A stretch of 64,000 bases of DNA from Astropecten irregularis. Taxonomy: Eukaryota > Echinodermata > Asteroidea > Paxillosida > Astropectinidae. The notes under the pieces were generated by a model. It searched no databases. It had not been told where the DNA came from and saw only the letters and a list, made by a program, of their open reading frames with translations. The position numbers and the translations under genes were made by a program. The stretch is taken from NCBI GenBank assembly GCA_963971285.1, contig OZ020258.1:13226614-13290613 (forward strand). The letters are read 5' to 3'. Shown here piece by piece: positions 27,492 to 61,348 of this stretch (position 1 is its first letter; each line of letters starts with the position of its first letter).

Positions 27492-30400
27492 GTATGAAAT
27501 GTGGTGGGCAATTTGACTGAATGTTTTGACGTATAAGTTGTCAAGTTGATAAAGTTACACGTCGTGGCATTTGTCTTCAAATTGTCTCCATTTTATTTTG
27601 ATTTGTGCCCTTTTTTTGTCAGAGTCAGAGTGGGAAGAATTTCACTGACCATGCTGATGCCTGGCCATTCACTTGTGCTTGTGTGCACAACGTCAAACCT
27701 ATGGGGACCGACAGAGGGCGTTTTGAGAAAAATGCATAGAGTTAAATAAAAAACTAACCGAACAAAGATTAGTCTCGAGATATAAAACAGTACAGACGTA
27801 TGAAGACCAACCGGAACACCAACCATGCACATGTTTTTGTTGACCAGTTGACCGGTCCCTGGTACCCGCACTTCGCGTATTACTACCTAATGGTTGGGAA
27901 CCAGCTCAATTGGTATGGCAGTGTGCAGCAGGTGAAATCCGCCTAGTCTTCTTCACAAGTCTCTCATCATGACAGGTTCGCTAAGCATGTGGGTCACGGT
28001 GGAGGTTATGAATAAACATTAATAAGTGCGTACGGAGCTCTAGAGGTGCCATGTGACTAGTCCTGAAATAAAATTATCTCGGGATGACGGCATAATAATC
28101 TTGAATCAGAATTTGTCATCCAGTGATAAATTATAGTCTTTTACCTTGGGTTATGCGTATGCTGGTTGGTGCTTCGATACTATAACGGTTGGTCTATTAC
28201 ATATACACCGGTTGTTGCTTCAATACGTATCAAGCCCCTGTACGGTTGGTCTTTTACATACGCCGGTTGTTGCTTCAATTACGTATGAATTAATTAAGCC
28301 CCTGTACGGTTGGTCTTTTTCATTGGGTTATGCGTATATTGCTGGTTTGTGCTTCGATACCTATAACGGTTGGTCTTTTACATACGCCGGTTGATGCTGC
28401 AATACGTATGAAGCCCCTGTACGGTTGGTCTTTTACATACGCCGGTTGTTGCTTCAATACGTATGAAGCCACTGTACGGTTGGTCTTTTGCATTGGGTTA
28501 TGCGTATGCTGGTTGGTGCTTCGATACCTATAACGGTTGGTCTTTTACATACGCCGGTTGATGCTTCAATACGTATGAAGCCCCTGTCCGGTTGGTCTTT
28601 TACATGCGCCGGTTGTTGCTTCAATACGTATGAAGCCCCTGTACGGTTGGTCTTTTGCATTGGGTTATGTGTACGCCGGTTGGTGCTTCAATACGTATGA
28701 AGCCCCTGTACGGTTGGTCTTTTGCATTAATTGGGTTATGTGTACGCCGGTTGATGCTTCAATATGTATGAAGCCCCTGTACGGTTGGTCTTAAATTTGC
28801 ATTGGGTTATGTGTACGCCGGTTGGTGCTTCAATACGTATGAAGCCCCTGTACGGTTGGTCTTTTGCATTGGGTTATGTGTACGCCGGTTGCTGCTTCAA
28901 TACGTATGAAGCCCCTGTACAGTTGGTCTTTTGCATTGGGTTATGTGTGCGCCGGTTGATGCTTCAATACGTATGAAGCCTCTGTACGGTTGGTCTTTTG
29001 CATTGGGTTATGTGTACGCCGGTTGTTGCTTCAATACGTATGAAGCCTCTGTACGGTTGGTCTTTTGCATAGGGTTATGTGTACGCCGGTTGGTGCTTCA
29101 ATACGTATGAAGCCCCTGTACGGTTGGTCTTTTGCATTGGGTTATGTGTGCGCCGGTTGATGCTTCAATACGTATGAAGCCTCTGTACGGTTGGTCTTTT
29201 GCATTGGGTTATGTGTACGCCGGTTGGTGCTTCAATACGTATGAAGCCCCTGTACGGTTGGTCTTTTGCATATATATAGGGTTATGTGTACGCCGGTTGT
29301 TGCTTCAATACGTATGAAGCCCGTGTACGGTTGGTCGATTCTTTTGCATTGGGTTATGTGTACGCCGGTTGATGCTTCAATACGTATGAAGCCTCGGTTG
29401 GTCTTTTACATTGTTGGTGTTTTTTCAAACCATTTGAAAAAATGATAACCAAATTTTTGAATCATGCCTATGAAAATAAAATATAATTCCGAGCGCCGGC
29501 TTTGTCCTTTAAAAAAAATTCCCCTTTTAAAAGTCTTCCAGTTGAATTTATATCCACTTAACTTTAAATACTAATATAATTAATATCACATTAATTAATA
29601 CACATTCATGGGCAAGAATATCAAGGAAGATACAATAATTAACGGTCATCTGTGAAAATTTCAGTCCCATGTGGCTCCCAATTTTGGAGAAAACAGTGAA
29701 AACGGCCACAGTGTTTCTTAAGTCTTTTCTCTTTTATTTTAATTTTATCTTTAAAAGTTAAATACAGCATTTCAGGCAGTAAAACTTTAACGGTATGTTT
29801 CTAACATCACCATCTGTATATATACCCTGTAATTAGTCATAGATAAAGCTGTGAGGATTTCTGTTTTAGTATGCTACCAAAGTACAGTATATGATACCTT
29901 TAAGTCTACCCTGACCTTCGTTGCCAGTTGTTCATGTTGGAATTTATTCATTCTAAGTCATTTTTTAAATACAGTTTGGTTTTGTTACAGTGCATTAAAA
30001 AAAAAAAAGTGAAATTAAATGAGGGACATGTAATAATATTATGCGTAGAAAAAAAAACGGATCACACTGTCAATTGTCTCAACATTTACAATGAGAGATG
30101 GGAAAACTCAAAAGCTACTCAAAGCTTAAACAATCCGAAGGTGGGGGGTATATGTTTGCATGAGGAAAGAGGACAAGTAATAGGGGAAGGGATGAAAACG
30201 GAAAATAAAATAAACTAGATGTGTTTGTTGACAAACACTGAGCTGTTTCGCGTATGTTTTTATAAATAATATGAAAAACAAACATGAACGCAATTGTCCC
30301 AGTACAGAGAAATTGCGGTGTTTTAATAGTCGTAAACAACTATAAGGAGCGTCGTCACTCGTCCATTAATATTCATATAGATACATGTACATACACGACC

Positions 30401-45400: not shown

Positions 45401-48400
45401 TTCGGTCTTTGACTAATTTTTTGATACACATACCATTTCTGGTGGAAATATTTTAACAGCCTGTTTCTACCAACCTCATCTTCATACCCTGAAAGTTGTA
45501 CATAAATCTGTGAACATTTCTGTTTGGGTATGTTACCAATCCTGTACTGTACCTTTAATCATGAAGATTTTAATTTCCACGTACCCAACCACATAACCAG
45601 GATGTAGTCACTTCCAAAATTAATGATTTTATTTCTTCTTTGTTTTACAGCGAGGAATTATGTTTAGGTAAGTTGTATTTTGAAAATCTAACCATCCCAA
45701 ATATTGAACATTCATCCTTTGGTAGTGCAGAATTTTTGAAGGACATAGGTTCCACATGCCAAACATTGGCTCAGTCCTTTGGAAATGACGCAGGATTATA
45801 GAAATCAGGTGCTGTTATAAACCTTATTCACGGTGCATCCATCTTGTCACCTTCCTTCTATACCCGTTGGAAAAGATAACACCAATTCTAAAATGAAGAC
45901 AGGTAGCAGACTATTTGGAATCCAAGCCTTGTAATCTTTCACCTACAGTAGCAAGGCATTTGCTACTGTAGGTACCCATTTACACCTGAGTGAAGAGGAG
46001 CATTATGTGACAAAGCATCTTGACCAAAGATGCAATAGCGCTCCGCACTTGCGCTAAAAATAGCACCGGATCTCAGACAAACATTGCAACCATGCAAACG
46101 TGTGTGGGTGTGCGCGTGCATGTACACTATGTGTGTGAGACAATGTTTGTCTGACATCCAGGAATTTTGTGAAGTCACTATTGCGGAGCGCTATTGGCCA
46201 GGAGCTCAGCCAAGCCATATATCATCATTGTAGAGGAAATTTGTTTGTATTTTTATCTACCCAGATCCAAGTTACCCACGGCCCACGTCAACCAGCCCTT
46301 GCCAGAGACTCTTACAGTGATAGAAAACACAATTCAAGTCAAGGGACTTCACACGTTTATAAGGTTTGTGTTAAGGAATAATGTTTATCAGGGATGTGAT
46401 TTGTCAGGAAAAATTCCAATTTCGGGATTATTTTCCCTCAATGCCCTAGTAGCAAAGTATAGGAGACATTGATTTTTTGGAGATTTTGTATAATGTTTTT
46501 AAGGATTTTTACACTAGTCCAGTCACAGCCCTGGGGCCAATTTCATAGAGCAGCTTATAAGTACAAAATTTGCTTAAGCATGAAATGTCTTCCTTGATCA
46601 AACAAGATTGTACCAATTTTCATGTGATGTTAACTGCTTTTGACTTGTATTCAGTCATTGTTTGCTGCTAAGCATAACATTCACAAAGAGTTTTTGGTAA
46701 CAAACTGGTAACAAGGCTTTTGATTCTGAAGCAAATTGTTGGTGCTTAAGCAGCTCTTTGAAATTGGCCCCTGGCTTTTACGAAACTTTTCTTTATGTTA
46801 AATTGCAAAGCATATAAATAGAATGCGATGTTAATTTTGGTTAGCTGATAAGCCAGCACTTCATTCGAAGACAACTTGATTACAGTACAGTACAGGATTG
46901 GTAACGTACCCAAACAGAAATGTTCACAGATTTACGTATAACTTTCACGGTACGAAGATGGTGATTGTAGAAACACCGATAAAATTTGTGTGCCTGAAAT
47001 GGTGTATTTTTTCCTGAAATTAGTCTAATAAAGACCGAAAACAGTTTTGATCTTGGGGTAAGATCAAAACCTTTCTTCATGTTTTATAAGAAAAATTGAC
47101 TTGGGTTTTAATTATTTCCTCATGACTCAGATGTCCGATTGAGCTCCAATTTTCACAGATTTATTATTTCATGTACAATTCTACATGTTTGATTATAGAA
47201 AGTGTCAGTAATGTTCTGTGACCTTTAGGAATCGTGTATTGTACCTTTAATTCGAAGACAACTGTATTAATTCACACATATTGTAAATCATTGAAATGAA
47301 CTGTCCATTATTAAGTCATTGAAAAGTGAACAAAGAAAAATTTAATGGAGTGGGATTCGAACCGGCGACCTCCTGAACACCGTACAGGCGCTCTTCCAAC
47401 TGAGCTATCCAGCCCTACATTGGTGGTGTTCCCAATAGTCAGTTATCTTTGTTCGTTTGGCAGTCAGAAGCCACACACCGCCATATCCCAAGGATCATTT
47501 CAAGATACACGCAGCAATGATGCAACCAGTCAAATTCCCCTGTGGTTATTTGACATTATTAAGTCATTTTGTAGAATGCTGAAGTTATAATTGAATTTTG
47601 TTGGTTTTTCATCACTCAACAGGAACAAAGACACAAGTCGAGATGAGTTTATCTTCTACTCACAGAGACTGACTAGAATCCTGGTTGAGAGTGCACTCGC
47701 CCTGTTACCATTTGAGGTAAACTCATCAAAGTCTATACATGTAATTGTTAATCCTGGTTGAGAGTGCACTCGCATTGTTGCCATTCGAGGTAAACTCATC
47801 AAAGTCTATACATGTAATTGTTAATCCTGGTTGAGAGTGCACTCGCATTGTTACCATTCCAGGTAAACTCATCAAAGTCTATACATGTAATTGTTAATCC
47901 TGGTTGAGAGTGCACTCGCATTGTTACCATTCCAGGTAAACTCATCAAAGTCTATACATGTAATTGTTAATCCTGGTTGAGAGTGCACTCGCATTGTTAC
48001 CATTCCAGGTAAACTCATCAAAGTCTATACATGTAATTGTTAATCCTGGTTGAGAGTGCACTCGCATTGTTGCCATTCGAGGTAAACTCATCAAAGTCTA
48101 TACATGTAATTGTTAATCCTGGTTGAAAGTGCACTCCCATTGTTACCATTTGAGGTAAACTCATCAAAGTCTATACATGTAATTGTTAATCCTGGTTGAG
48201 AGTGCACTCGCATTTTTACCATTTGTGCGTAGACGCTTTGAAGCCATCTTGGGCGCTGTCATTTTGAATTTGTGTGCGTGTCTGTGGAACAAGAAAACTT
48301 TGACTGGAATGCCTGTCGAAGACACCATATGCAACGTGAAGTACGCGCGAACGGTACCGGTAGCGCATCTTCATGACGCTTGCAATCATTGCGTGACTGA

Positions 48401-51400
48401 AGTGCAGCGCGTGTGCGCGCACTGCGCAGAATTAACCGAAGGTGCTTCGGATTTTGGGCGTATTGGGCTTCGATAACGCACCTGCATAGAACACAAACGC
48501 AGATATGCAAATAGACGTACAAAAGACGTACACAATTTTGTGTTTTCCATAGGTTTGTGCACAAACATGGATGCGCCCAGCAGGCATCACTCTGTACACA
48601 GAGCTAGCACTCTAGTAATTTTAATATTTCTCTATGGGCTCTCCTCACTCCAAGCATAATATATATATTCAGGTCATTATTTTGGATGATGAGCAGTTTG
48701 CAGCAATTTATTACTTGTATAAAGATATAAATAATGTAAATAAAAGAAATAGCTCTGCTGAAAGAAATGATTATAGCAATTTAAGTTTTAGGTTGAAGTT
48801 CAAACCGTGAGATTCAATATATTAATGGGCATTTGTACTAAAATAGAATAATTTTTTTTCTTCATTTTGAAAATTTCATTTTCTTTCCTCTTTTGGCCGA
48901 TAAATAGGATTGCGTTGTGAACACACCACAGAACACCACTTACAAAGGACGAAAATTCACAGGCAAAGTAAGTTCCAAGATCAATATTTTTCAAAAGATC
49001 CAGGGGCCGATTTCACTAACGCTTTGCGATCATCGCTTAAGCCCAAATCCATCGCTAAACTGAAAATCGATCGCTACTTTGTGTAGCAATTTTATGTTAG
49101 TGATGGATTTGGGCTTTAGCGATGATCGCAAAGCGTTAGAGAAAATGACCGCAGGCCTCTTAAGCCCTAAGCAGTCTTCACTTGTTGTGAAGATAGCATG
49201 AGTGATTATCGTTTCACTTCTTGATGGAATATGAATTGAGAAAGAAATGAAACAGGTATCAGTTTCAAACTTTTTGACCAAACCAGGACTCAAACCCGAT
49301 ACTCGTGAGTTACTGCTCCAATAATCTAAGCTTTCCATTCCTATAATCAGCACTGAAGATGCCAGTCCAGACTGTCACAACAGTACAAAGATACAACCAA
49401 TCTTAATTATGTAATGCCTTTACTTAACGGGTTCCTGTAGTGCTTTTTTTCAGTCAGGTTATTTTATTGCCTTCATACAGAGAATGTACTGACAGATAAT
49501 GAATGGCAAGTCTTATTTTGGTTTCAAATCAAACTAGCATTTGGTTTTCATTTGAATGGCTTTGCAAAATGGGGGATTTTCATGCATGCTCATGTGGGGA
49601 ACCAACAGCAAACGTATAATGAAAAAACATACAAAATGAAGAGGCAAACTTTTACCCACAGAAATTATTTGGCAAAAAAATTAAACCACCAGTTCAGTGA
49701 AAGGAACATATTTGGCAAAATAAAACCCATTGAGGAGGAAAATGTCAGCCAGAAAAACCTGTAAGCTTTTTACCAGGCAGAAGTTGTTTATGATTCGAGG
49801 TTGGTTAAAGGTTTTCATCCTAGATAAACACAAACTTTACAGATTTGCATTTTTAATAGACAGCGTAAATTATGGTTGCGTTCATTAAGCTTCCATGAGT
49901 CGACACCAGTCAACCTCATCCCCACCCTCTTACTTGTTTTGTGCAGTATAGCACGACCATTCCCAGGTCAGGGCTGTCCCATGAAAACTATTAAACGAAC
50001 GCACCTTATGTCAGTGAAGTGAAAACAGTTCAACATTTCATGTTCATCTGGATAAAATAAGTTTTTCTTGACAACCTTTTCAAAATGAGTTGAATGTTTT
50101 CTTCTTTAAATTTTCAGTTGGATGGGGATCGTACTAAGGTCAGTTTTTTGTGCGTAGATATAACACTGGGTTTGTTGCGTTTGCTTTGAATACTAAACCG
50201 TTGCCGTGGCATTGCTTTGACCACAAAGTCAATGTTTTTTGCCACCGCCATTTTTTTCGGCATGCATTCATTTGTATGTTTTGAAAATCAAGAATTTTGT
50301 TCCTTCTGATTTTTTTTTTTTACAGTTTTTCAATTTCCATGATTTTTTTTTTAAGCTTATATATCTATTTTTATTCTGATTATATTTTTGTGTTATGATA
50401 ACAGATTGGTTAGTTTATGTTGAGTGTCATGAGCTTGGTTCTTTGAGCTGCTTAGCAAAAGTTATTGCCTCATGAAATGTGCATATTAAGCAAAAAGAAA
50501 ACATAAAGGAATGTGATGGAACAGAGCAAAATGAGTCATAAGTGTTTGACACTGATTCAGGACCACTAGAGAGTTGTTGAAAACAAGTCCTGGGGTCGAT
50601 TTCACCAAACTCATCGTAACTTACTATCAATTGTAGGACATATGATTGCATCCCTACGTAGGATATGATTTTTTACCCTTCATTACTCGCGTGCCAATCA
50701 ATCGTAGGGCTTCGTGAAATTGATCCCTGGGGTATTTAGGTTTTCACCCAATGATGCCCTTGAATTGTACCTTCAGATGTCGACCTGTTTGTTGCCACCC
50801 CCACCCCCCCAAAAAAATGAAGTTCTTTCTGATGCATGAATGAAAAAGGGGGTCGATTAACTCGATTTCACAAAGCCCTACGGTCAATCGTGACTCGAGT
50901 TACATGTACGAAGGATAACCCATCATATCCTATGTAGGGCTACAATGCATCATAAGTCCTACGATTGATAGTTAGTTACAATGAGTTTGGTGAAATCAAC
51001 CCCTCGACTTTATTTCATATAACTTAGGAATACTCCCATCTTGGATTTAGTAAAAGAAACAATGGTTCCCAGTGGTTCCCAAGTCCAAGGTAATCCATTT
51101 AAGTATTAGAACGTTTTTTATTTGTCATAAATTTTTCCTGAGTTATTCAGATTTTTTAAAGGATTTTTTTTCGGAATGGTCCTACCTGTATAACGGTTGT
51201 GTGAAATAGAGTCTGGGTCATCAATATCAACAGAGTACCAGTCATAGGAGATAGAAATCACATACACTTTTGGCTGGTAACTGAGTCAGACTTGTTTGCT
51301 CTTAGTTTAGTAAGTGGATTGTAGTAGCTACATGAAGTGATCCTATTGCTGCACATTGCATGCTTAGAGTGTTATTAAAAACACCACCACGGTTTGTTTG

Positions 51401-54400: not shown

Positions 54401-57400
54401 TATCACATATTGCTCCTCTTCACCCAGGTGTAAATGGGTACCTTTGAGGGTAGAGTTTGTGTGTTTGATTAGCCTTCGTGCGCTTATAGCAGCTGGGGCT
54501 GTATACTCCCCAGGGAGTTGAGTTGGTTTCAGGAATGTTTAATAATGTAGCCCAATGACCAGGAAGATGATAATAATCTGCGCCTTTGAATGGAATTTTC
54601 CAGATACTGTGCGCATTATATTGCTCTGATATTATTATGTTTAATGTTTAAAGGTAGTATCATACTTTGGTTTTTGTCAAAGAAATACAGATTCATGGGC
54701 AAAAATATCAAGGGAGATACAGTAAAACTAAAAGTAATCTGTGAAAATTTCAGTCCCTTACGGTGCCAACTTTTTGAGACAACAGTGAAAAACGGCCACA
54801 GTATTTCTTAAGTCTTTTCTCTTTAATTTTTTTATCTTTTAAAAGATCAAAAAGATTTTTGGTCGTTGTTTTATTAATTTCTGGATAAATACACCATTTC
54901 AGGCGGAAATATTTTAGCGGTAGGTTTCTACCATCACCATCTTCATACCCTGAAATTTATATGTAAATCTGTGAACATTTCTGTTTTGGTCTCTTACCAA
55001 AGTATGATACTACCTTTAAACATGAAGTCAAAATGTCCATTGTCACACGTTTGTGGCTCAAAAGCTACAAATTGGTTTCCAGCTAATTCTGGTTTTCAGA
55101 ACCTTCATGGTCTAGCGGGTACCAGCTGACTAATACAGAATATTGGGCAAGATCAAGGAACAGCCATTAACTAACCAATTATTGGTTACCGTCTAATCGT
55201 GTGCATTGACGCTGATATGACAAAGTACCAGCAACCATCATTGCCAATGGTCATTGATTCATTGTAGGTTGCTATGCAGATTCCATGCGGTGTCATCATT
55301 TGAGAGGCATATTTCAATCTCATATATTTAAAGCTAACATGTAGGCCTACACGTTCAAGTGCACACAGGACAGTATGCAAGCATTTCATGCATGCACATG
55401 CACATGTTGCAATCATTGACCCTTTCACCTATGGGATTTTGTGTAGTTGTAAAAAATTGCCTCAGATCGCACATTCAGAGCAGCTAGAATTCAAAATTCT
55501 AAACCCCACGCCGTTAAATATCATACTTTGGTTTTTGTCAAAGAAAAAGAGATTCATGAGCAAAAATATCAAGGAAGATACGGTACCTGTCATTTGTGAA
55601 AATTTCAGTCCCATACATGTACATGGGACAAAATGGCCACAGTATTTCTTTAGTCTTTTCTCTTTTATTTTTGATCTTTAAAAGATCAAAAATAATTTTG
55701 GTCACTGGTTTTACTCTTTTCTGGATAAATACAGCATTTCAGACAGAAATATTTTAACGGTATGTTTTTACCATCACTATCTTTATACCCTGTAAGTTAT
55801 AGGTAAATTTGTTAACATTTCTATTTCGGTCTGCTACCAAAGTATGATACTACTTTTAAAGTGTCGCGTTTCACGCTCGCTTGTACCCCCTACCTTTCAG
55901 AAGAGATTGACACCTAAGAAAAATACTGAGGAGAAACGAATAGAAAGGGAAAGCAAAACGATAAAGGATTTTTTGTCACTAACACCCCCCACCTGCGAAA
56001 GCAATGCAGGCTATGCGCCTTGTTAAAGACCGTTGAATTGTGTTAAAGAGCTAAGATAACGTCACAACGTAAAATAGGGACGATACTCACGTTTGCCCCA
56101 CCGGACTGACAATGCTGGCTACACGCCTGGATTAAGGGATCTCCTTGCGCCGAGTATAAATGATCCTTAAGAGATAAAATGACATATTGGAAAACATCTG
56201 TCAAATGCAAACTACACATGGTGTTGTGATGCTTAAAGGTAGTATCATACTTTGGTTAGAAACCAGAACAGAAATGTTCACAGATTTACTTATTTATTTT
56301 TGATCTTTTAAAAGATCAAAAATAAAAGAGAAAAGACTTACGAAAATAATATGGTGGCTGTTTTTCACTGTTTTCTCAAAAAGTGGGCACCGTATGGGAC
56401 TGAAATGTTCACAGATGACTGTTACTGTATCTGTCTTGGTATTTTTGCCCATGAATCTGTATTTCTTCGATAAAAACCAAAGTATGATATTACCTTTAAT
56501 AATTCACCAGCGTGGAGAAAAATCAAGGAATCCCTCCTTTCTCCCTTATGGTCTGTCCATAAAGTGGCTTTTTTGTTTGAACTCTGTGCTCTTGCTCTGA
56601 TTTTTGACATTTTCATGTCAATATGCCATGTTACAGCATTCAGTTTTGTTGCAAAGCTTTGTGGTAGAACCACTTTAAAACTTCATTGTTGCTCATCATG
56701 TATTGATCAGCATTTTGTGGCAAATACTGTATGAAGAGATTCACTCATCTTCCATGTTTAAACTCCTAATTTTTATTTTACACAGATTTTTCCAAGTGCC
56801 GAAATGCTAAATTTGTCTTCATTATGTCAGAAAGTTTGCAGCATTTTGGAGTTTTTTTCCAATGAATCCCCATGTTAATAAGGACATTTTCCCGAAATGT
56901 TCTGTTGCTAACCATGCTTACGAAATTTACACACTTAATTTTTAAGTTCATTTTTCTGTGTATTTTGAGAATGAATATGCAAAAATAAGTATTCTGGGCA
57001 GAAAATGTACACTAATTTGGATGCAGTGAACTAAACTAATTGCAGGTGTTTGTTGCAAACTGTTTTTATGGAATGCAAAAATAATAACTCCCTTGAAGTT
57101 TTCATTTTTTTGTGATTGATTCTAATGTCCTTCAGATGATTATTTGATTATTTTAGCTGTGCGGAGTGTCAATACTTAGAGCTGGGGAGGTGATGGAGCC
57201 CGCCCTCTGTGACGTCTGCAAGGACATTCGACTCGGCAAGATTTTAATTCAGACCAATCTGGACACGGAAGAGCCAGAGGTAAATGTGAAACTCCTTCTA
57301 AATAATAACAGTCTTTGAAAAGTGAACAAAGAAAAATTTACTGGAGGGGGATTTGAACCAGCGACCTCCTGAATACCGTACAGGCGCTCTACCAACTGAG

Positions 57401-60400
57401 CTATCCAGCCCTACGTTGGTGATGACCCCAATAGTCAATTATCTTTGTTCGTTTGGCAGTCAGAAGCCATGAAACCACGCACACACCGCTATATCCCAAG
57501 GATCACTTCACCGATACGTGCAGCAATGCTGCAACCTGCGAACGGTACATGGGGGATCACTCCAAGAGGATACAGCTTTTTAATTAATATGATCATCAAA
57601 TAACCACAAGGGAAACTGACTGAATTAAAAGGCATTAAAAAGTGAACAAAGAAAAATTGATTTTCTTTGTTCACTTTTCAATAACTTTTAATTCAAATTA
57701 TAGATTAATTACGGCGCCCGCCGAGACAAGGGATTTGATTCACCCCACTGACCCCAGCTAGCTTGGTGACCTATCTGCATCTGCACTAGTAAGCAGGAGG
57801 TTGTGGGTTCGAATCCCACCTGAGCCAGTGCATGATTTTTTCATGTGCACTGAAAAAACACATAGTGAAGTGCTCATCTACGTCGGTGAAGAAGAATAAA
57901 TTATTTGCATTGTTCTAAATTCTCTTTGTGCAGCTATATTCTTAGATCAGTATTGTGTAATGTATACAAGATCAGACCCGAGGTTTTACCAGCGACACTC
58001 GTCACTTGTCAACTACAGTGCTATAGCGCCCTCTAGTGACAAGGGCTCTGAGGGTTGTTCAACATGGCTGCTTAATAATAATATAATATCAGAGCATTTA
58101 TAAACCGCACAGTTTCTAGAAAGTACCATTGAAAGGTGCAGATTATTATTATCCCCTGGTCATTGGTCTACATAATTAAACATTCCTGAAACCATCTCAA
58201 CTCCCTGGGGAGTATACAGCTCCGGCTGCTGTAAGTGCATGAAGGCTAATCAACCACAAAGCCATCTCTACCCTCACAGGTACCCATTTACACCTGGATG
58301 GAGAGGAGCAATATGTGACAAAGCGTCTTGCCCAAGGACGCAAGCACCATCAACCAATGGCCGGATTCGAACCCACAATCTGTAGATTGACAACATGATC
58401 TTGATCACGAAACGCCAGATCAAAGACCACTAGGCCATTGCACCCCACCCCACCCCGCTTGCGTGGAATACTTTTGCGATTAATCCTTTGTCGTCCTCGG
58501 CAGTCTTTGGGTCGATTTCACAAAGCACTGAGACTTATCTTAAATCATGAACTCATTTTCATTACTAAGCAAAGTGTGATGTCACAATAAAAATCACTAT
58601 GGTAACACAGACATCTCAAAGTTACTATTAATCTTAGTGTTTTGTGAAATCGACCCCTGCGCTAACAAAAACAGCACAATTATGAAACAAGATTTGTACA
58701 CAGAATTGCTCTCTCCTGTTCACAAACAGAATGATAAATTCAGTTGCTACGGAAAAATAGTTCATGTACCTGAGAAATGTTTGATTAACATTTACACACT
58801 TTGTGGACAGTCTGAATCCCAAGCAACGAACAGCAGAAGAAATCGGATAATATCTTTGGCAAGACTCTTCTGTCATTTACTGAAATTGTAACTTGTGTGA
58901 GCTCAATCAAGAATAAGCTGAAAAACTGGGTGTACTATTTTAACGGAAAACTGACACTATAAACTACATAAACAAATATGGCTGCATTGAGATGTCAAGT
59001 GTCCAACTATAGAGGGTGCAATTCAAAGTCACTGTCCTGGGGTCGATTTCACGAAGCCCTGCGATCGATCGTAACTCGAGTTACGAAGGATAACCCATCG
59101 TAGTGGGCCTATCCCACGTAGGGTTGCAATGCATTGATAAGTCCTACGATTGATAGTAAGTTACGAAGAGTTTGGTGAAATCGACCCCTGTCCAACTAAA
59201 CTGCAACACTTTGTATTTCTAAAAGATTGTTCTTCAGATTGAAACATATTGGAGACTTGGAGTTAAAGTTGTCATACTACCTTCAAAGTATCATACTACT
59301 GAGCATTTTTTCAATTTTTCTCGACATTTTGTGAAAAATATAAATTATTAGTATATAATCATCACTTTCCCTTCAAATCTGTTGTGTATGCAGCTGCACT
59401 ATCTCAGGTTGCCCAAGGAGATCGGCAAGGATCATGTGATCTTAATGGATGCTACCGTAGCAACGGGAGCGGCAGCCATGATGGCAATCCGAGTGCTTCT
59501 GGATCACGATGTACCTCAGGAAAACATCATGCTGTTGTCTCTCTTGATGGCCGAGTCAGGTAAGTTCTTCGTTTCTTCGTAAAGGGCCTTTACGAAACCA
59601 GGCTTGAAGCTAGGCTTGGGACTTATTTCGCCTCCGCCATTTGAGGCCCAGCATTTGAACATGATTGAGGCATGAGCCACAAGATGAAGCCTAAGAAAGG
59701 CTCAAGGCTTGAGGCTAGCTAAGGCTTGGGACTTATTTCGCTACCGCCATTTGAGGCCCACAATATTAAACATAGGGATTGATTCACATGACGAAGCCTA
59801 AGAAAGGCTCCTGGCTTGGGGCTAGGCTAGGCTTGGGACTTATTTCGCTACCGCCATTTGAGGCCCACAATATTAAACATAGGGATTGATTCACATGACG
59901 AAGCCTAAGAAAGGCTCAAGGCTTGAGGCTAGCTAAGGCTTGGGACTTATTTCGCTACCGCCATTTGAGGCCCACAATATTAAACATAGGGATTGATTCA
60001 CATGACGAAGCCTAAGAAAGGCTCCTGGCTTGAGGCTAGGCTAGGCTTGGGAATTATTTCGCCTCCGCCATTTGAGGCCCACAATATTAAACATAGGGAT
60101 TGATTCACATGACGAAGCCTAAGAAAGGCTCCAGACTTGAGGCTAGGCTAGGCTTGGGACTTATTTCGCCTCCGCCATTTGAGGCCCAGAATATGGAACA
60201 TGGGATTGAGCGAGATGATGAAGCCTAAGAAAGGCTCCTGGCTTGAGGCTAGGCTTGGGAGTTATTTCGCTACAGTCATTGAAGCCCACAATACAAAACA
60301 CAGTGATTCTGCCACTTGACGAAGCCTAAGAAAGGCTCCTGGCTTGAGGCTAGGCTTGGGACTTATTTCGCTACAGTCATTGAAGCCCACAATACAAAAC

Positions 60401-61348
60401 ACAGTGATTCTGCCACATGACGAAGCCTAAGAAAGGCTCCTGGCTTGAGGCTAGGCTAGGCTTGGGACTTATTTCGCCTCCGCCATTTGAGGCCCAGAAT
60501 ATGGAACATGGGATTGAGCGAGATGATGAAGCCTAAGAAAGGCTCTAGGCTTGAGGCTAGCCTAGGCTTGGGAGTTATTTCGCTACAGTCATTGAAGCCC
60601 ACAATACAAAACACAGTGATTCTGCCACTTGACGAAGCCTAAGAAAGGCTCCAGGCTTGAGGCTAGCCTAAGCTTGAGACTGGATAGGACTGGATAGATC
60701 AGTTTGTATGAGTACTGGTACGGTATTCCGGAGGTAGCTGGTTCGAATCCTGCTCTAGTCAATGTTTCTTTGTTCTGCTAGTCTTTGCTGGCTTTTATAG
60801 AGAAGAGCCTTCTAATTATAATGCCTGTCTCTTTGTCGGACATGTTATCTGTTTGTCTTTGGGGCTGTCGTGGGGTTTCTTTAGTTGGGCATGTTCTAAT
60901 GTTGTTTATTTGTTTACCGGTTGCTTTGTTTGTCTGTCTGTTTATTTGTGCGTGTGCTTGCCTATTTATTTGTTTTTCATATTGGATTCCTTATTTTTAT
61001 TTTGTGTATTTGTGTAGGTGTGCACACTGTGGCCTATGCTTTTCCCAAGGTGAAGATCATCACAACAGCAGTAGACCAAGAAATCAACGAGAACTTCCAC
61101 ATCATCCCAGGCATTGGTAAGTAAATAATGACCTTTTGACCTTGTATCTGATTACACGAAGCCCTACGATCGATCGTAACTCAAGTTACGAAGGATAACA
61201 CATGGTAGGCCTGCAATGCATCATACATCCTACGATTGATCGTAAGTTACGATGAGTTGCATTATAAGTGTCTATTATTATTAAAAATGTAAGATATTTC
61301 GTCCATTCTGCTGCAGGTAACTTCGGTGACAGATATTTCGGAACGTAG
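27400..61348 (+). CDS. UCKL1: UCKL1, uridine-cytidine kinase-like 1, complete gene span
   Basis: There are 15 coding exons: 27400..27491, 36623..36822, 37777..37883, 39172..39297, 39482..39526, 40270..40341, 42784..42973, 44677..44738, 45651..45667, 47623..47716, 48908..48967, 57157..57279, 59394..59559, 61018..61116, 61317..61348. They total 1485 nt and 494 aa; human UCKL1 is about 550 aa. The N-terminal half is a uridine kinase: P-loop GGSASGKT (101-108), DSFYK (129-133), and the Arg-rich lid [10 protein letters not shown] (235-244). The C-terminal half is a UPRT-like domain: GVSILRAGE and a PRPP-loop segment [15 protein letters not shown] (411-425). The family acts in pyrimidine salvage, phosphorylating uridine and cytidine; whether the UPRT half is active in animals is uncertain. 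The protein stops at NFGDRYFGT and lacks the acidic tail of vertebrates. All phases agree. The introns hold nearly all repeats seen between 28 and 61 kb. Confidence 0.96.
28146..29410 (+). repeat. 67-bp tandem array (about 20 units) in UCKL1 intron 1
   Basis: The unit begins GCCCCTGTACGGTTGGTCTT and contains TTGGGTTATGTGTACGCCGG and TTGCTTCAATACGTATGAA. Starts at 28844, 28911 and 28978 give a 67-bp period. Shorter units lacking the TTGGGTTATGTG part and an ATAACGGTTGG variant dominate the left third. The long ORFs across it are by-products of the repeat. Confidence 0.95.
29590..29899. mobile_element. AGGTAGTATCATAC-family element, left end lost
   Basis: The body matches the family (CATGGGCAAGAATATCAAGG, AACGGCCACAGTGTTTCTTA). 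The right end ATGATACCT is followed by TTAA at 29900. Confidence 0.7.
30214..31465. repeat. CRE-like TGACGTCA-rich repeat with AGCTGTTTCGC ends
   Basis: GAGCTGTTTCGCGTATG near 30240 faces CATGCGAAACAGCT near 31452. Between them GATGACGTCATCGTGACGTCA and ACCCACCAAGTTTCAT blocks recur with spacings of about 130-150 bp (30655, 30806, 30926, then weaker). A long A-rich tract sits at 31378-31438. No ORF of note. Confidence 0.6.
31466..31935. other. Unclassified UCKL1 intron 1 sequence
   Basis: AT-rich, no exon or clear repeat recognised. Confidence 0.4.
31936..32262. repeat. Diverged AGGTAGTATCATAC-family copy
   Basis: CATACTTTGGTTTTTGTCAA and CAATACGGTGCCCGCTTTTT match the family. Both ends are eroded and TTAA is not retained. 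Confidence 0.65.
32640..33400 (+). repeat. Diverged GGGAACGAAATAATATTTTGAGG repeats
   Basis: Short units containing GAACGAAAT, ATTTTGAGG and ATTTCGAGGGAA recur, clustered at 32690-32950 and 33295-33370. Confidence 0.6.
33836..33967 (+). repeat. tRNA-derived SINE (family 1)
   Basis: The tRNA-like head GGGCTGGATGGCTCAGTTGG TAGAGCG has a perfect B box GGTTCGAATCC, followed by the family tail TTTTTCTTTGTTCACTTTTC. This is the best-preserved head in the window. Confidence 0.88.
33968..34545. repeat. Locally duplicated CG-containing intronic sequence
   Basis: GAAAAGTGCGCATCCGTG...TTGAAGTCGCGATCAAAACC (34338-34390) is repeated as GAAAAGTGCGCATGCGTG...TTGAAGTTGCGATCAAAATC (34460-34510). No coding similarity was recognised. 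Confidence 0.55.
34755..34795 (+). repeat. Poly-C tract
   Basis: About 30 consecutive C residues between two CTGACTCGCCC flanks, a low-complexity expansion. Confidence 0.9.
34900..35300. other. T- and GTT-rich intronic sequence
   Basis: TTGTTTT and GTGGTTGTTG low-complexity stretches at about 35090-35180. No gene. Confidence 0.5.
35380..35545. repeat. Foldback repeat with GGATCTTTCTCAAAG arms
   Basis: GGCAGGATCTTTCTCAAAGG faces TTTGAGAAAGATCCTGCC, within GGAGTTAGGAAAAGGAGGAC / GGTCCTCCTAGCTCC. A relative of 45045-45175. Confidence 0.7.
36150..36590 (+). repeat. tRNA-derived SINE pair with shared body before UCKL1 exon 2
   Basis: A degraded head (36150-36235) and a good head (36447-36520, TAGCTCAGTTGGTAGAGTG and TGTTCGAATCC) flank a body (GCAGCATTGCTGCGTGTATC, GATATGGCGATGTGTACG) that reappears inverted at 47450, 51600 and 57480. 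Confidence 0.82.
36623..36822 (+). CDS. UCKL1: UCKL1 coding exon 2
   Basis: A Ser/Thr-rich segment ([16 protein letters not shown]) is followed by the conserved [19 protein letters not shown] and KEAFVIG leading into the P-loop. The acceptor is GATGATAG and the donor ATTG|GTAAGA. Confidence 0.93.
36873..37050. repeat. GAAACnnnGGCTCAGGCTC palindromic repeat
   Basis: GGCGTTTACGAAACAGAGGC faces GCCGCCGTTTCATAAACGC. Located 50 bases after UCKL1 exon 2. Confidence 0.8.
37389..37622. repeat. GAAACnnnGGCTCAGGCTC palindromic repeat
   Basis: TTTACAAAGCAGAGGCTCAG faces CCTCCGTTTCGTAAATGCCC; shared core GAAAACAGAGTTTCAG. Confidence 0.8.
37777..37883 (+). CDS. UCKL1: UCKL1 coding exon 3 (P-loop)
   Basis: It encodes [20 protein letters not shown] and [15 protein letters not shown], containing the Walker A motif and the DSFYK nucleoside-binding segment. 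The donor AAG|GTGATT is followed within 40 bases by a long inverted repeat. Confidence 0.96.
37920..38254. repeat. Long inverted repeat next to UCKL1 exon 3
   Basis: Arms of about 110-150 bases: TGACACCATGTACATGTAAT and GTGTGTGGTTCTGAGAAGAA on the left pair with TTCTTCTCAGAACCACACAC and ATTACATGGTGTCA on the right. The ends are AGGTAGGGTT / AAACCTACCT. The left arm begins 37 bases after the donor. Confidence 0.85.
38270..38460 (+). repeat. GAGTCCGAGTAC low-complexity repeat
   Basis: Diverged GAGTCC / GAGTAC / AAGTCC hexamers following GTGTTGGAGTAGAGTCC. The same opening occurs at 39681. Confidence 0.7.
39172..39297 (+). CDS. UCKL1: UCKL1 coding exon 4
   Basis: It encodes 42 residues from VLNEQQH to KEGKCVE, including the conserved [11 protein letters not shown] block of uridine kinases. 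Confidence 0.95.
39482..39526 (+). CDS. UCKL1: UCKL1 coding exon 5
   Basis: A 45-nt exon encoding [15 protein letters not shown], matching the conserved VPIYDFTTHSRK segment of the kinase domain. Confidence 0.93.
39681..39915 (+). repeat. AGGCCAAGGCC minisatellite in UCKL1 intron 5
   Basis: Tandem GAGGCCAAGGCC / AAAGCCAAGGCCGAGTCAT units. It makes long repetitive ORFs on both strands that are not genes. Confidence 0.9.
40270..40341 (+). CDS. UCKL1: UCKL1 coding exon 6
   Basis: It encodes [24 protein letters not shown], the Walker B-like VIIFEG strand of the kinase. Confidence 0.95.
40573..42637. mobile_element. Nested element with CAGGGATTTAAG ends
   Basis: CAGGGATTTAAG on the left and inverted AGGGATGTAAG on the right, flanked by AACATAT on both sides, with only one mismatch if 8 bases are compared. 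It fits hAT. It contains a further element at 40871-42309. Confidence 0.65.
40871..42309. mobile_element. pogo/Tigger-like element with TA target duplication
   Basis: CAGTCGAACCTCATTAATACG and the inverted CGTATTAACGAGGTTCGACTG are flanked by TA on each side. Subterminal AATACGAG words repeat. CAGTCGAACCTC...TA is typical of pogo/Tigger elements. No intact transposase ORF (longest about 90 residues). Confidence 0.82.
42784..42973 (+). CDS. UCKL1: UCKL1 coding exon 7 (lid)
   Basis: It encodes [20 protein letters not shown], then [24 protein letters not shown] and ADIVVPRG. These are the lid and the end of the kinase fold. The exon is noticeably GC-rich against its introns. Confidence 0.97.
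43572..43665 (-). repeat. tRNA-derived SINE fragment (family 1)
   Basis: On the minus strand: GGCTGGATAGATCAGTTGGT AGAGC and GCAGGCTTGAATCCCAC. Confidence 0.8.
43978..44190. repeat. Compound palindromes with GGGGCCGATTTCAT ends
   Basis: GGGGCCGATTTCATAAAGC faces TTATGAAATCGGCCCC. Outside it AAAATAGCACAAATTTG repeats. A second unit of GACGCATCGCA / TGCGATGCGTCG follows and ends TTTTATGAAATCGGCCC. Confidence 0.7.
44677..44738 (+). CDS. UCKL1: UCKL1 coding exon 8
   Basis: It encodes [20 protein letters not shown], matching the conserved LIVQHVHSQLE helix. Confidence 0.94.
45045..45175. repeat. TGCTTGGAGTT foldback repeat
   Basis: TGATCCTAGCAGAATATTAC and AAAGATTCTGCTAGGATGG pair within GTTAGGAGGGACTGATGTTT / AAACGTCAGGCCCTACTAAC. 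Confidence 0.7.
45227..45554. mobile_element. TTAA-flanked AGGTA...TACCT element (second subfamily)
   Basis: TTAA at 45223-45226 and 45555-45558. Ends just 93 bases before the 17-nt UCKL1 exon 9. Confidence 0.78.
45651..45667 (+). CDS. UCKL1: UCKL1 coding exon 9 (17-nt microexon)
   Basis: CGAGGAATTATGTTTAG encodes RGIMF plus two bases of an Arg codon. It has a strong acceptor (TTTGTTTTACAG) and donor (AG|GTAAGT). The frame only works if it is included between exons 8 and 10, and RG-M aligns with human RGMHTII. Vertebrates have about 25 more residues here. Confidence 0.87.
45828..46031. repeat. Repeat fragments adjoining UCKL1 exon 9
   Basis: 45828-45930 matches the repeat at 20138-20290. 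45965-46031 (TACCCATTTACACCTG, GACAAAGCATCTTG) matches the body of SINE family 2. Confidence 0.65.
46033..46201. repeat. AATAGCGCTCCGCACT palindromic repeat, copy 3
   Basis: GCAATAGCGCTCCGCACTTG faces TTGCGGAGCGCTATTGGCC. Core in the opposite orientation to copies 1 and 2. Confidence 0.8.
46532..46771. repeat. GGGGCCAATTTCATAGAGC palindromic element
   Basis: GGGGCCAATTTCATAGAGCA faces GCTCTTTGAAATTGGCCCC. Internal TTGCTTAAGCA words. Terminus related to the GGGGTCGATTTCAC elements. Confidence 0.75.
46884..47246. repeat. AGGTA/TACCT second-subfamily element, left end diverged
   Basis: Shares CTCATGACTCAGATGTCCGA and GGTACGAAGATGGTG-type blocks with its relatives. TTAA only on the right (47247-47250). 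Confidence 0.65.
47315..47570 (-). repeat. tRNA-derived SINE (family 1) with body
   Basis: On the minus strand: TAGCTCAGTTGGAAGAGCGC, B box GGTTCGAATCC, then the TTTTTCTTTGTTCACTTTTC tail. Body with GATATGGCGGTGTGTGG on the tRNA 5' side. It ends 50 bases before exon 10. Confidence 0.85.
47623..47716 (+). CDS. UCKL1: UCKL1 coding exon 10
   Basis: It encodes [31 protein letters not shown], the start of the UPRT-like domain. Its last 39 bases and its donor GAG|GTAAAC form the first unit of a 73-bp tandem array that continues into the intron. Confidence 0.95.
47678..48225 (+). repeat. 73-bp tandem array spanning the exon 10 / intron boundary of UCKL1
   Basis: Units start at 47678, 47751, 47824, 47897, 47970, 48043, 48116 and 48189. 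Each repeats ATCCTGGTTGAGAGTGCACT from the exon end, the GAG|GTAAAC donor (GAG or CCAG variants) and the first intron bases CATCAAAGTC. The last unit breaks off before the donor. The real exon holds only the first unit. Confidence 0.95.
48226..48640. other. GCGC-containing intronic sequence after the array
   Basis: A roughly 340-bp stretch of mixed composition ending CTAGCACTCTAGTAATTTT, similar to 34282-34310. No exon recognised. Confidence 0.45.
48647..48735. repeat. TGCTTGGAG-family fragment
   Basis: CACTCCAAGCATAATATATA and AGGTCATTATTTTGGATGATGAG match the right flank of the copy near 21000 and parts of 45000. Confidence 0.6.
48908..48967 (+). CDS. UCKL1: UCKL1 coding exon 11
   Basis: It encodes [20 protein letters not shown] in phase 0, matching the conserved DCVVQTPQG segment. 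Confidence 0.93.
49003..49150. repeat. GGGGCCGATTTCACTAACGC palindromic element
   Basis: CTAACGCTTTGCGATCATCGC faces GCGATGATCGCAAAGCGTTAG, with AAGCCCAAATCCATCGCTAA / TTAGTGATGGATTTGGGCTT inside. The left outer end carries the shared CCGATTTCAC terminus; the right outer end is degraded. Confidence 0.85.
49151..50117. other. Unclassified UCKL1 intron 11 sequence
   Basis: AT-rich with no homology recognised. TAAACGAACGCACC / GGTTGCGTTCATT words occur at 49870-50003. Confidence 0.4.
50118..50138 (+). other. Candidate 21-nt in-frame microexon in UCKL1 intron 11
   Basis: TTGGATGGGGATCGTACTAAG encodes LDGDRTK. It is flanked by a pyrimidine-containing acceptor (CTTTAAATTTTCAG) and donor AAG|GTCAGT, and its length is a multiple of three. 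If included it would insert LDGDRTK between KFTGK and [10 protein letters not shown]. No comparable residues are known to me in vertebrate UCKL1, so it may be chance. Confidence 0.3.
50591..50732. repeat. GGGGTCGATTTCAC palindromic element
   Basis: GGGGTCGATTTCACCAAACT faces CTTCGTGAAATTGATCCC. Core CGTAACTTACTATCAATTGTAG. Confidence 0.8.
50852..51004. repeat. GGGGTCGATTTCAC palindromic element
   Basis: Opposite orientation to the preceding copy, ending GGTGAAATCAACCCC. The left end has a small internal duplication (GTCGATTAACTCGATTTCAC). Confidence 0.8.
51430..51720 (-). repeat. tRNA-derived SINE (family 1) with body
   Basis: On the minus strand: GGCTGGATGGCTCAGTTGGT AGAGCGCC and GGTTCGAATCCCAC. 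Body GCAGCATTGCAGCACGTATT extends to about 51720. Confidence 0.87.
51968..52314. mobile_element. TTAA-flanked AGGTAGTATCATAC element (type copy)
   Basis: TTAA at 51964-51967 and 52315-52318. AGGTAGTATCATACTTTGG faces CTAAAGTATGATACTACCT. Internal ATCTTTAAAAGATC is self-complementary at the centre. Best example of the family. Confidence 0.88.
52473..52620. repeat. GGGGTCGATTTCAC palindromic element
   Basis: GGGGTCGATTTCACAAAGCC faces GTTTGGTGAAATCGACCC. Confidence 0.85.
52700..52935 (+). repeat. Direct duplication of about 120 bp
   Basis: TTTTGTACTGAGCCACTTTA TATTGGAACTTTGCACCC (52731) is repeated at 52853 with one change (GAGACAC). Both are followed by ACTTTTGCACACAGCA. Period about 122 bp, two copies. 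Confidence 0.8.
52978..53316. mobile_element. TTAA-flanked AGGTAGTATCATAC-family element
   Basis: TTAA at 52974-52977 and 53317-53320. Ends diverged (TGGTAGTATCATAC / GTATGATACTGTAACT). Confidence 0.78.
53668..53987. repeat. Palindromic element with AGGTCGAAAAAAAAATTGTTG ends
   Basis: AATTGTTGTGTTGCCCT faces AGGGCAACACAACAATT, with ACCGACCGTAAAATG and GGTCGGGATTT against AACCGACCCAACATTTT inside. The ORF across the minus strand is a by-product. Confidence 0.82.
54355..54600 (+). repeat. SINE family 2 body fragment
   Basis: ACCGGCCATGGGTTAGTGGTG, then GGGCAAGATGCTTTATCACA and CTCCCCAGGGAGTTGAG. The inverse occurs intact at 58100-58446. Confidence 0.75.
54652..55015. mobile_element. TTAA-flanked AGGTAGTATCATAC element
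   Basis: TTAA at 54648-54651 and 55016-55019. Inverted orientation of the internal asymmetry relative to 51968-52314. Confidence 0.87.
55517..55855. mobile_element. TTAA-flanked AGGTAGTATCATAC-family element
   Basis: TTAA at 55513-55516 and 55856-55859. The left end has lost AGGTAG. Confidence 0.8.
56237..56495. mobile_element. TTAA-flanked AGGTAGTATCATAC element with internal deletion
   Basis: TTAA at 56233-56236 and 56496-56499. About 90 bases shorter than the type copy; the central TGATCTTTTAAAAGATCAAA is retained. Confidence 0.85.
56500..57156. other. Unclassified UCKL1 intron 11 sequence
   Basis: No exon or repeat family recognised before exon 12. Confidence 0.4.
57157..57279 (+). CDS. 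UCKL1: UCKL1 coding exon 12
   Basis: It encodes [20 protein letters not shown], then [21 protein letters not shown], the UPRT core with the GVSILRAGE motif. Confidence 0.96.
57312..57690 (-). repeat. tRNA-derived SINE (family 1), full unit with two tails
   Basis: On the minus strand the head TAGCTCAGTTGGTAGAGCGCC and tail are followed on the far side by the body and a second tail (AAAGTGAACAAAGAAAAATTG at 57645), which then faces its own inverse at 57660-57680. Confidence 0.87.
57768..57850 (+). repeat. tRNA-like B-box fragment
   Basis: GGAGGTTGTGGGTTCGAATCCCACCTGAGCC looks like a tRNA T arm, but the 5' half is not tRNA-like. Probably a SINE relic. Confidence 0.5.
58100..58446 (-). repeat. 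tRNA-derived SINE (family 2), near full length
   Basis: On the minus strand: head TGCAATGGCCTAGTGGTCTT and GTGGGTTCGAATCCGGCC, then body TCCTTGGGCAAGACGCTTTG, GGTGTAAATGGGTACC, CTCCCCAGGGAGTTGAG, ending CCAGGGGATAATAATAATCTG. The tail AATAATAAT suggests a LINE-assisted 3' end. Confidence 0.8.
58507..58659. repeat. GGGTCGATTTCACAAAGCACT palindromic element
   Basis: Ends GGGTCGATTTCACAAAGCACT and AGTGTTTTGTGAAATCGACCCC, with the core GAGACTTATCTTAAATCATG / TTACTATTAATCTTA unlike the 50.6-kb subfamily. Confidence 0.8.
59038..59190. repeat. GGGGTCGATTTCAC palindromic element
   Basis: GGGGTCGATTTCACGAAGCC faces GTTTGGTGAAATCGACCCC; the intact-ended copy of this subfamily. Confidence 0.88.
59394..59559 (+). 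CDS. UCKL1: UCKL1 coding exon 13 (PRPP loop)
   Basis: It encodes [20 protein letters not shown], then [20 protein letters not shown] and the [15 protein letters not shown] stretch. ATGAA is the PRPP-binding loop of the UPRT fold. Confidence 0.97.
59585..60690 (+). repeat. 107-bp tandem array (about 10 units) in UCKL1 intron 13
   Basis: Unit: ACGAAGCCTAAGAAAGGCTC, GGCTTGAGGCTAGG, TTGGGACTTATTTCGC, CGCCATTTGAGGCCCA, then a variable ATTAAACATAGGG or CAAAACACAGTG part. Starts at 59791, 59898, 60005 and 60112 give a 107-bp period. At least three unit variants alternate in blocks. Confidence 0.95.
60695..60780 (+). repeat. tRNA-derived SINE head (family 1), degraded
   Basis: GGATAGATCAGTTTGTATGAG and GGTTCGAATCCTGCTCTAGTC, then TTTCTTTGTTC. 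It abuts the 107-bp array. Confidence 0.75.
61018..61116 (+). CDS. UCKL1: UCKL1 coding exon 14
   Basis: It encodes [32 protein letters not shown], the end of the UPRT domain. The acceptor is TTTGTGTAG and the donor ATTG|GTAAGT. Confidence 0.96.
61148..61259. repeat. GATCGATCGTAACTC palindromic element lacking outer ends
   Basis: CGAAGCCCTACGATCGATCG faces CCTACGATTGATCGTAAGTT. It occupies half of the short last intron of UCKL1. Confidence 0.75.
61317..61348 (+). CDS. UCKL1: UCKL1 terminal coding exon
   Basis: It encodes NFGDRYFGT and [12 protein letters not shown] is the conserved UPRT C-terminus. No clear AATAAA was seen shortly after the stop, so the transcript end is not defined. Confidence 0.93.

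Follow-up and report, generated by a model that had tools for sequence, protein, structure and literature searches.

A 73-bp tandem array repeats the 5' splice site of a UCKL1 exon in Astropecten irregularis

The window analysed here is a 64,000-nucleotide stretch of the Astropecten irregularis genome (assembly GCA_963971285.1, contig OZ020258.1). It contains a UCKL1 gene, of which parts of twelve exons were followed from about 36.6 to 59.6 kb (up to 59559). The exon translations, joined by eye, matched PF00485 (PRK/uridine kinase, E 1.1e-60) followed by PF14681 (UPRTase, E 9.9e-54), and the C-terminal part aligned, at E <= 0.001, to 8 distinct sequences of solved UPRTases. We take this pair of domains to be the defining mark of UCKL1, and the kinase followed by the UPRTase domain in one joined product supports that identity. 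As far as it was traced the remainder of the gene looks intact, with both domains recognised across the twelve partial exons. One 94-nt exon at 47623..47716 (+) encodes part of the UPRTase domain and is defined by its reading frame, an acceptor (CAACAG/G) and a donor (GAG/GTAAAC). Exon tracing and frame place the next exon, of 60 nt, at 48908..48967 (+), and the intron between the two is 1191 nt long and in phase 0. The initial annotation labelled the upstream exon as exon 10. The exon/intron boundary stood, whilst the number depends on 5' exons beyond those traced, the exon being the ninth traced in the window.

This boundary lies within the first unit of a 73-bp tandem array. Reading the array unit by unit, with its limits set by periodicity, we placed it at 47677-48225 (+), a length of 549 bp. 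Tandem Repeats Finder called 47677-48223 (period 73, 7.5 copies, 96% matches, 0% indels, score 1010). Seven full units (47677..48187, +) are followed by a broken eighth of 38 bp (48188..48225, +), which stops just short of its donor. Every full unit comprises the last 40 nt of the 94-nt exon followed by the first 33 nt of its intron, and unit 1 is the genuine exon end, in reading frame. The initial annotation was thus right that a real seven-donor array exists and that the amplification took in the exon end along with the intron start; its start moves by one base, from 47678 to 47677.

The units are not all alike. Units 3, 4 and 5 are mutually identical, unit 2 equals unit 6 and has two differences from units 3-5, and units 1 and 7 each have four differences from every other full unit. 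Units 1, 2/6, 7 and 8 carry variants of their own, making the outer units distinguishable. Among units 1-7, all seven variable columns fall in the exon part, the 33 nt of intron being invariant (P 0.015, or 0.049 once adjacent columns are merged). Five of the seven variants are synonymous, against an expected fraction of 0.25 (P 0.012). Two of these five are unique to unit 1, the real exon under selection, and in a recount without them the synonymous variants were therefore 3 of 5 (P about 0.1, calculated by hand). The pattern is a hint of constraint beyond what pure neutrality would need, and we do not build on it. A search of the whole assembly (475.7 Mb, 168 contigs) with the array gave one first-look candidate, the window itself (C22:13226614-13290613), and matched neither a second copy nor a second allele anywhere in this single assembly, in a tool whose repeat counts are lower bounds. 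A dispersed satellite was rejected on this single matching place.

On its right the array is fused to a MITE-like transposon (48225..48640, +), recognised from its copies elsewhere in the assembly. This high-copy element has inverted repeats of about 40-45 bp and lacks one end at the array junction. The 425 bases that follow the array gave 40 scored places at 85-100% identity, the window included, from 1379 first-look candidates. We could read the left edge at 9 of 19 other fetched loci, and at all nine the element continues into all or part of an inverted repeat, about 40-45 bp long, that is absent in the window; the remaining loci were matched at the right inverted repeat only (8) or were uninformative (2). 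At the junction, unit 8 (...CCATTTG) directly abuts GTGCGTAGACGC inside the transposon. A deletion probably removed both donor 8 and the left end of the transposon, and the array would formerly have extended at least into an eighth unit. Since the right end of the array is joined inside a transposon lacking its left end, such a deletion accounts for the broken eighth unit, and was preferred to the alternative that the broken unit marks the end of the original duplication.

Other repeats were seen in the window. UCKL1 holds a second array (59609-60681, 107 bp x 10.1) that starts 50 nt beyond the last traced exon's donor (59559) and contains no GTRAG donor on its + strand. Complex overlapping arrays with periods of 37, 55, 67 and 167 occupy 28136-29393. 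These two large arrays suggest a minisatellite-rich genome. A tRNA-like repeat family is represented at 47313-47527, with copies at 57310, 36322, 51436, 33837, 63080 and 15374, in three of which ARAGORN called a tRNA-Thr. The next UCKL1 intron contains a MITE-like segment (49011-49144) with an 82% match to its own reverse complement.

The seven full units present seven donors in the pre-mRNA sequence. Donor 1 (GTAAAC, 47717..47722, +) is that of the real exon, and its copies start at 47790, 47863, 47936, 48009, 48082 and 48155. The donor context is GAG/GTAAAC in units 1, 2, 6 and 7 and CAG/GTAAAC in units 3-5; all seven [GC]AGGTAAAC sites on the + strand of the window lie inside the array. On a generic matrix, the donors of units 1, 2, 6 and 7 score 2.42 and those of units 3-5 score 3.46, and no other GT in the intron scores 2 or more, in agreement with the initial description of seven near-equal donors. 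The predicted duplex of the 9-mer with U1 is likewise stronger for the CAG donors of units 3-5 (-8.3 kcal/mol) than for donor 1 (-6.9 kcal/mol). With the fourth-lowest score among 11 UCKL1 donors, donor 1 is weak yet unexceptional.

Translating each product that the seven donors could give set donor 1 apart from its copies. Donor 1 keeps the frame and is alone in reading into the next exon. All six products of donors 2-7 end at the same in-frame TGA (47759..47761, +), which lies upstream of the end of the exon made with donor 2 (47789), and inclusion of a 73-nt pseudo-exon met the same stop in all five cases tested. Because the first added repeat already contains the TGA, the truncated protein is identical whichever of donors 2-7 is used, and a third added unit is of no help. 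The earlier proposal that the frame shifts unless three units are added was thus overturned, and frame rescue by three units was rejected. Alternative exons split by tiny introns were also rejected, the intron part of a unit being only 33 nt. By the usual rule, a stop upstream of several exon junctions leads to nonsense-mediated decay. The TGA at 47759 is so placed, and decay is therefore expected; each downstream donor brings a premature stop, as a decay-coupled alternative donor does. The protein from any mRNA escaping decay would have the kinase domain but just the beginning of the UPRTase domain.

We favour, at a probability of roughly 0.6, the reading that the array is a minisatellite of recent origin in this one gene, tolerated because the productive mRNA comes from donor 1. 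Its single place in the assembly, the ordered unit variants, the transposon junction, the shared stop and the otherwise intact gene all support this. The array would have grown and been homogenised through slippage or unequal exchange, and its ends appear old and its middle young, the middle units being the most alike, as either process would leave them. A deletion into the transposon would have trimmed the eighth unit. The gene would tolerate the array with most productive mRNA made with donor 1. Some transcripts may use donors 2-7, meet the stop at 47759 and undergo nonsense-mediated decay; alternatively, they may yield a kinase-only protein cut early in the UPRTase domain. The array would then be at most a mild drain on UCKL1 output, like the one-unit-retaining transcripts of human ABCA7, although 'mild' may be too kind given that the ABCA7 array has effects beyond leakage.

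With 23 boundaries in 23 kb, a 548-bp array placed in this exon-rich stretch meets about 0.5 boundaries on average, so that, judged by position alone, overlap with an exon boundary is unremarkable even without selection. Against dominance of donor 1 stands the higher score of the donors of units 3-5. Where equal donors compete, the intron-proximal one is as a rule favoured, which would likewise predict use of the later donors.

A different reading starts from the exon itself, where folding and a complement search revealed an element at 47642..47655 (+) whose 14 nt complement donor 1 (47714-47727), two of the pairs being G-U (GATGAGTTTATCTT with GAGGTAAACTCATC), and complement its copies too, apart from small differences. 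This element would mask a lone donor but, with at least two units, would pair mainly with donor 2 and leave donor 1 open, so that the array helps splicing and copies are favoured. When exon and array are folded together (z -2.15, with 1 of 100 shuffles folding as well), 47642-47655 is paired with a donor. The pairing was noticed only after this fold had been seen, and the control counts that follow are therefore post hoc, which weighs against the reading. The complement was reached by none of 2000 dinucleotide-shuffled exons and by 5 of about 2930 segments taken at random from the window (of 3000 drawn, those falling in 47000-48400 were skipped). Among the 535 GTRA sites on the window's + strand, 2 reached it, donor 1 and a site at 49099. 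The ten other UCKL1 donors had complement scores of at most 7, compared with 13 for donor 1. This rarity favours the reading, whilst the helix at 49099, a site lying within an inverted repeat, is longer still than that of donor 1 and speaks against it.

Partition-function folding of the real array at 12, 20 and 37 C gave a probability of pairing between the element and donor 2 of at least 0.87 in 44 of 45 settings and 0.35 in the other, in line with a decoy role for donor 2; two further folding settings gave 0.75 and 0.94. Across the 45 settings, donor 1 is predicted to be about 0.34-0.43 unpaired. When the 3' end was allowed to grow, the element was predicted to lie on donor 1 first and to shift to donor 2 once this is made. 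Adding a second unit made donor 1 freer, to 0.35-0.43, in 33 of 35 sequence contexts, and only 1 of 150 shuffled exons equalled the gain from one to three units; both results favour the reading. Against it, the values vary widely with context, donor 1 being 0.07-0.44 unpaired when only one unit is present and pairing of the element with donor 2 ranging from 0.02 to 0.95 with two units. Limiting the pairing span to 150 nt also left the element on donor 1 (0.90). The ten other UCKL1 donors, which presumably are spliced, have predicted unpaired values of 0.17-0.61, so masking need not make a donor fail, and the one-copy ancestor that the argument requires is hypothetical. Taken together, we consider it unlikely that copies were favoured by drawing the element from donor 1. 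Slightly less likely, as a model, is a self-correcting splice site in which the copies draw the masking element away and the array switches the real donor on, each copy itself being a dead end via the shared stop. If that were true, array length would act as a dial on UCKL1 output. The predicted pairing between exon and donor is testable by silent changes.

The same stop could instead serve regulation, with a controlled choice between donor 1 and donors 2-7 setting the level of UCKL1 through decay, as in Hps1. The likeness is that the productive site is upstream and weaker than those of units 3-5, and that the downstream sites give a stop, as the accessible text on Hps1 describes for its donors (PMC4222953). 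However, the middle units are identical and hence young, and in ABCA7 the retention of one unit is independent of array length, according to the portion of that report available (PMC5954066). We regard a regulated poison extension as distinctly improbable.

That the assembler inflated a single copy is very unlikely. The identity of units 3-5 would fit such an artefact, but variants distinguish units 1, 2/6, 7 and 8, the end of the array is fused to sequence within a transposon, and the array is short and was matched once, in place. With outer units that differ and an array of only 549 bp, an artefact looks less likely. Splicing in chained steps, in which the AG/GT of each unit acts as acceptor and donor around a zero-length exon and the intron is removable in multiples of 73 nt, is the least credible reading: units 3-5 do read ...TTACCATTCCAG/GTAAAC, and pyrimidines make up 0.69 of the 16 nt scored, where four correctly placed true acceptors have 0.56-0.69, but the intron is only 1191 nt and no trace of such steps would remain in the mRNA.

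Our preferred reading, a tolerated young minisatellite, places the UCKL1 array amongst known donor-spanning minisatellites, in unusually regular form. Its unit holds the authentic donor of a coding exon plus exon sequence, as in the human CBS subtype. Use of later donors in the human CBS VNTR was reportedly described by Lievers in 2001. This VNTR, named c.1444_1467+7, has a 31-bp unit, by its name 24 exon and 7 intron nt, and 16-21 copies, as given in the accessible part of PMC2630376. Like the UCKL1 array, it has a unit spanning an exon/intron boundary, a donor in every copy and substitutions between units; unlike it, the unit is shorter, the copies are more numerous and copy-number alleles are known (PMC2630376, same portion). 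The same text describes a further CBS variant, c.844_845ins68, in which a duplicated intron/exon junction creates two close splice sites, one of them strongly preferred (PMC2630376).

The human ABCA7 VNTR in intron 18 has a 25-bp unit that opens with the two donor bases of exon 18 (PMC5954066, from the part available, as throughout this paragraph). Its transcripts show canonical splicing alongside retention of one unit with a premature stop, and stop-bearing transcripts rise when decay is blocked (PMC5954066). With array length, skipping of exon 19 goes up and expression goes down, whereas unit retention is not length-dependent; in one brain region, alternative transcripts exceeded the canonical in 90% of cases (PMC5954066). 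As in UCKL1, an authentic donor is repeated and use of a later one brings in both a unit and a stop, in ABCA7 by adding one unit and shifting the frame, the product being subject to decay (PMC5954066). The ABCA7 unit differs in beginning at the GT, without exon sequence, and in the skipping of exon 19 that tracks its length (PMC5954066).

Hps1 resembles UCKL1 in that a weaker upstream donor is productive and a downstream donor adds a stop coupled to decay; it differs in having two donors under Ptbp1 control, and the portion of the paper available mentions no repeat array (PMC4222953). In DOK7, as far as the accessible text goes, competing donors are governed by strength, distance and bound proteins (PMC5585400). 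The Rogers model of intron gain by tandem duplication of AGGT, applied to potato RdRp and the 24-bp repeats of fission yeast, likewise has AGGT in each copy, but the UCKL1 copies enlarge an intron (PMC4974935, available part). The same paper cites genes of fission yeast in which AGGT segments are repeated and an intron spans several of the copies (PMC4974935).

The initial annotation called the layout unusual, which was only partly right given its precedents in human CBS (PMC2630376) and ABCA7 (PMC5954066), each as described in the text available. ABCA7 was the sole addition to CBS among the listed papers on donor-spanning minisatellites judged by title and the start of the abstract, a coverage mostly outside subscription papers that gives no measure of rarity. 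Donor choice among equal donors has been studied largely with constructed genes. Seven near-identical natural tandem donors, of which one is productive, would offer a ready test of spliceosome choice among equal donors, and the donor-spanning minisatellites of human CBS and ABCA7 would extend to another animal gene.
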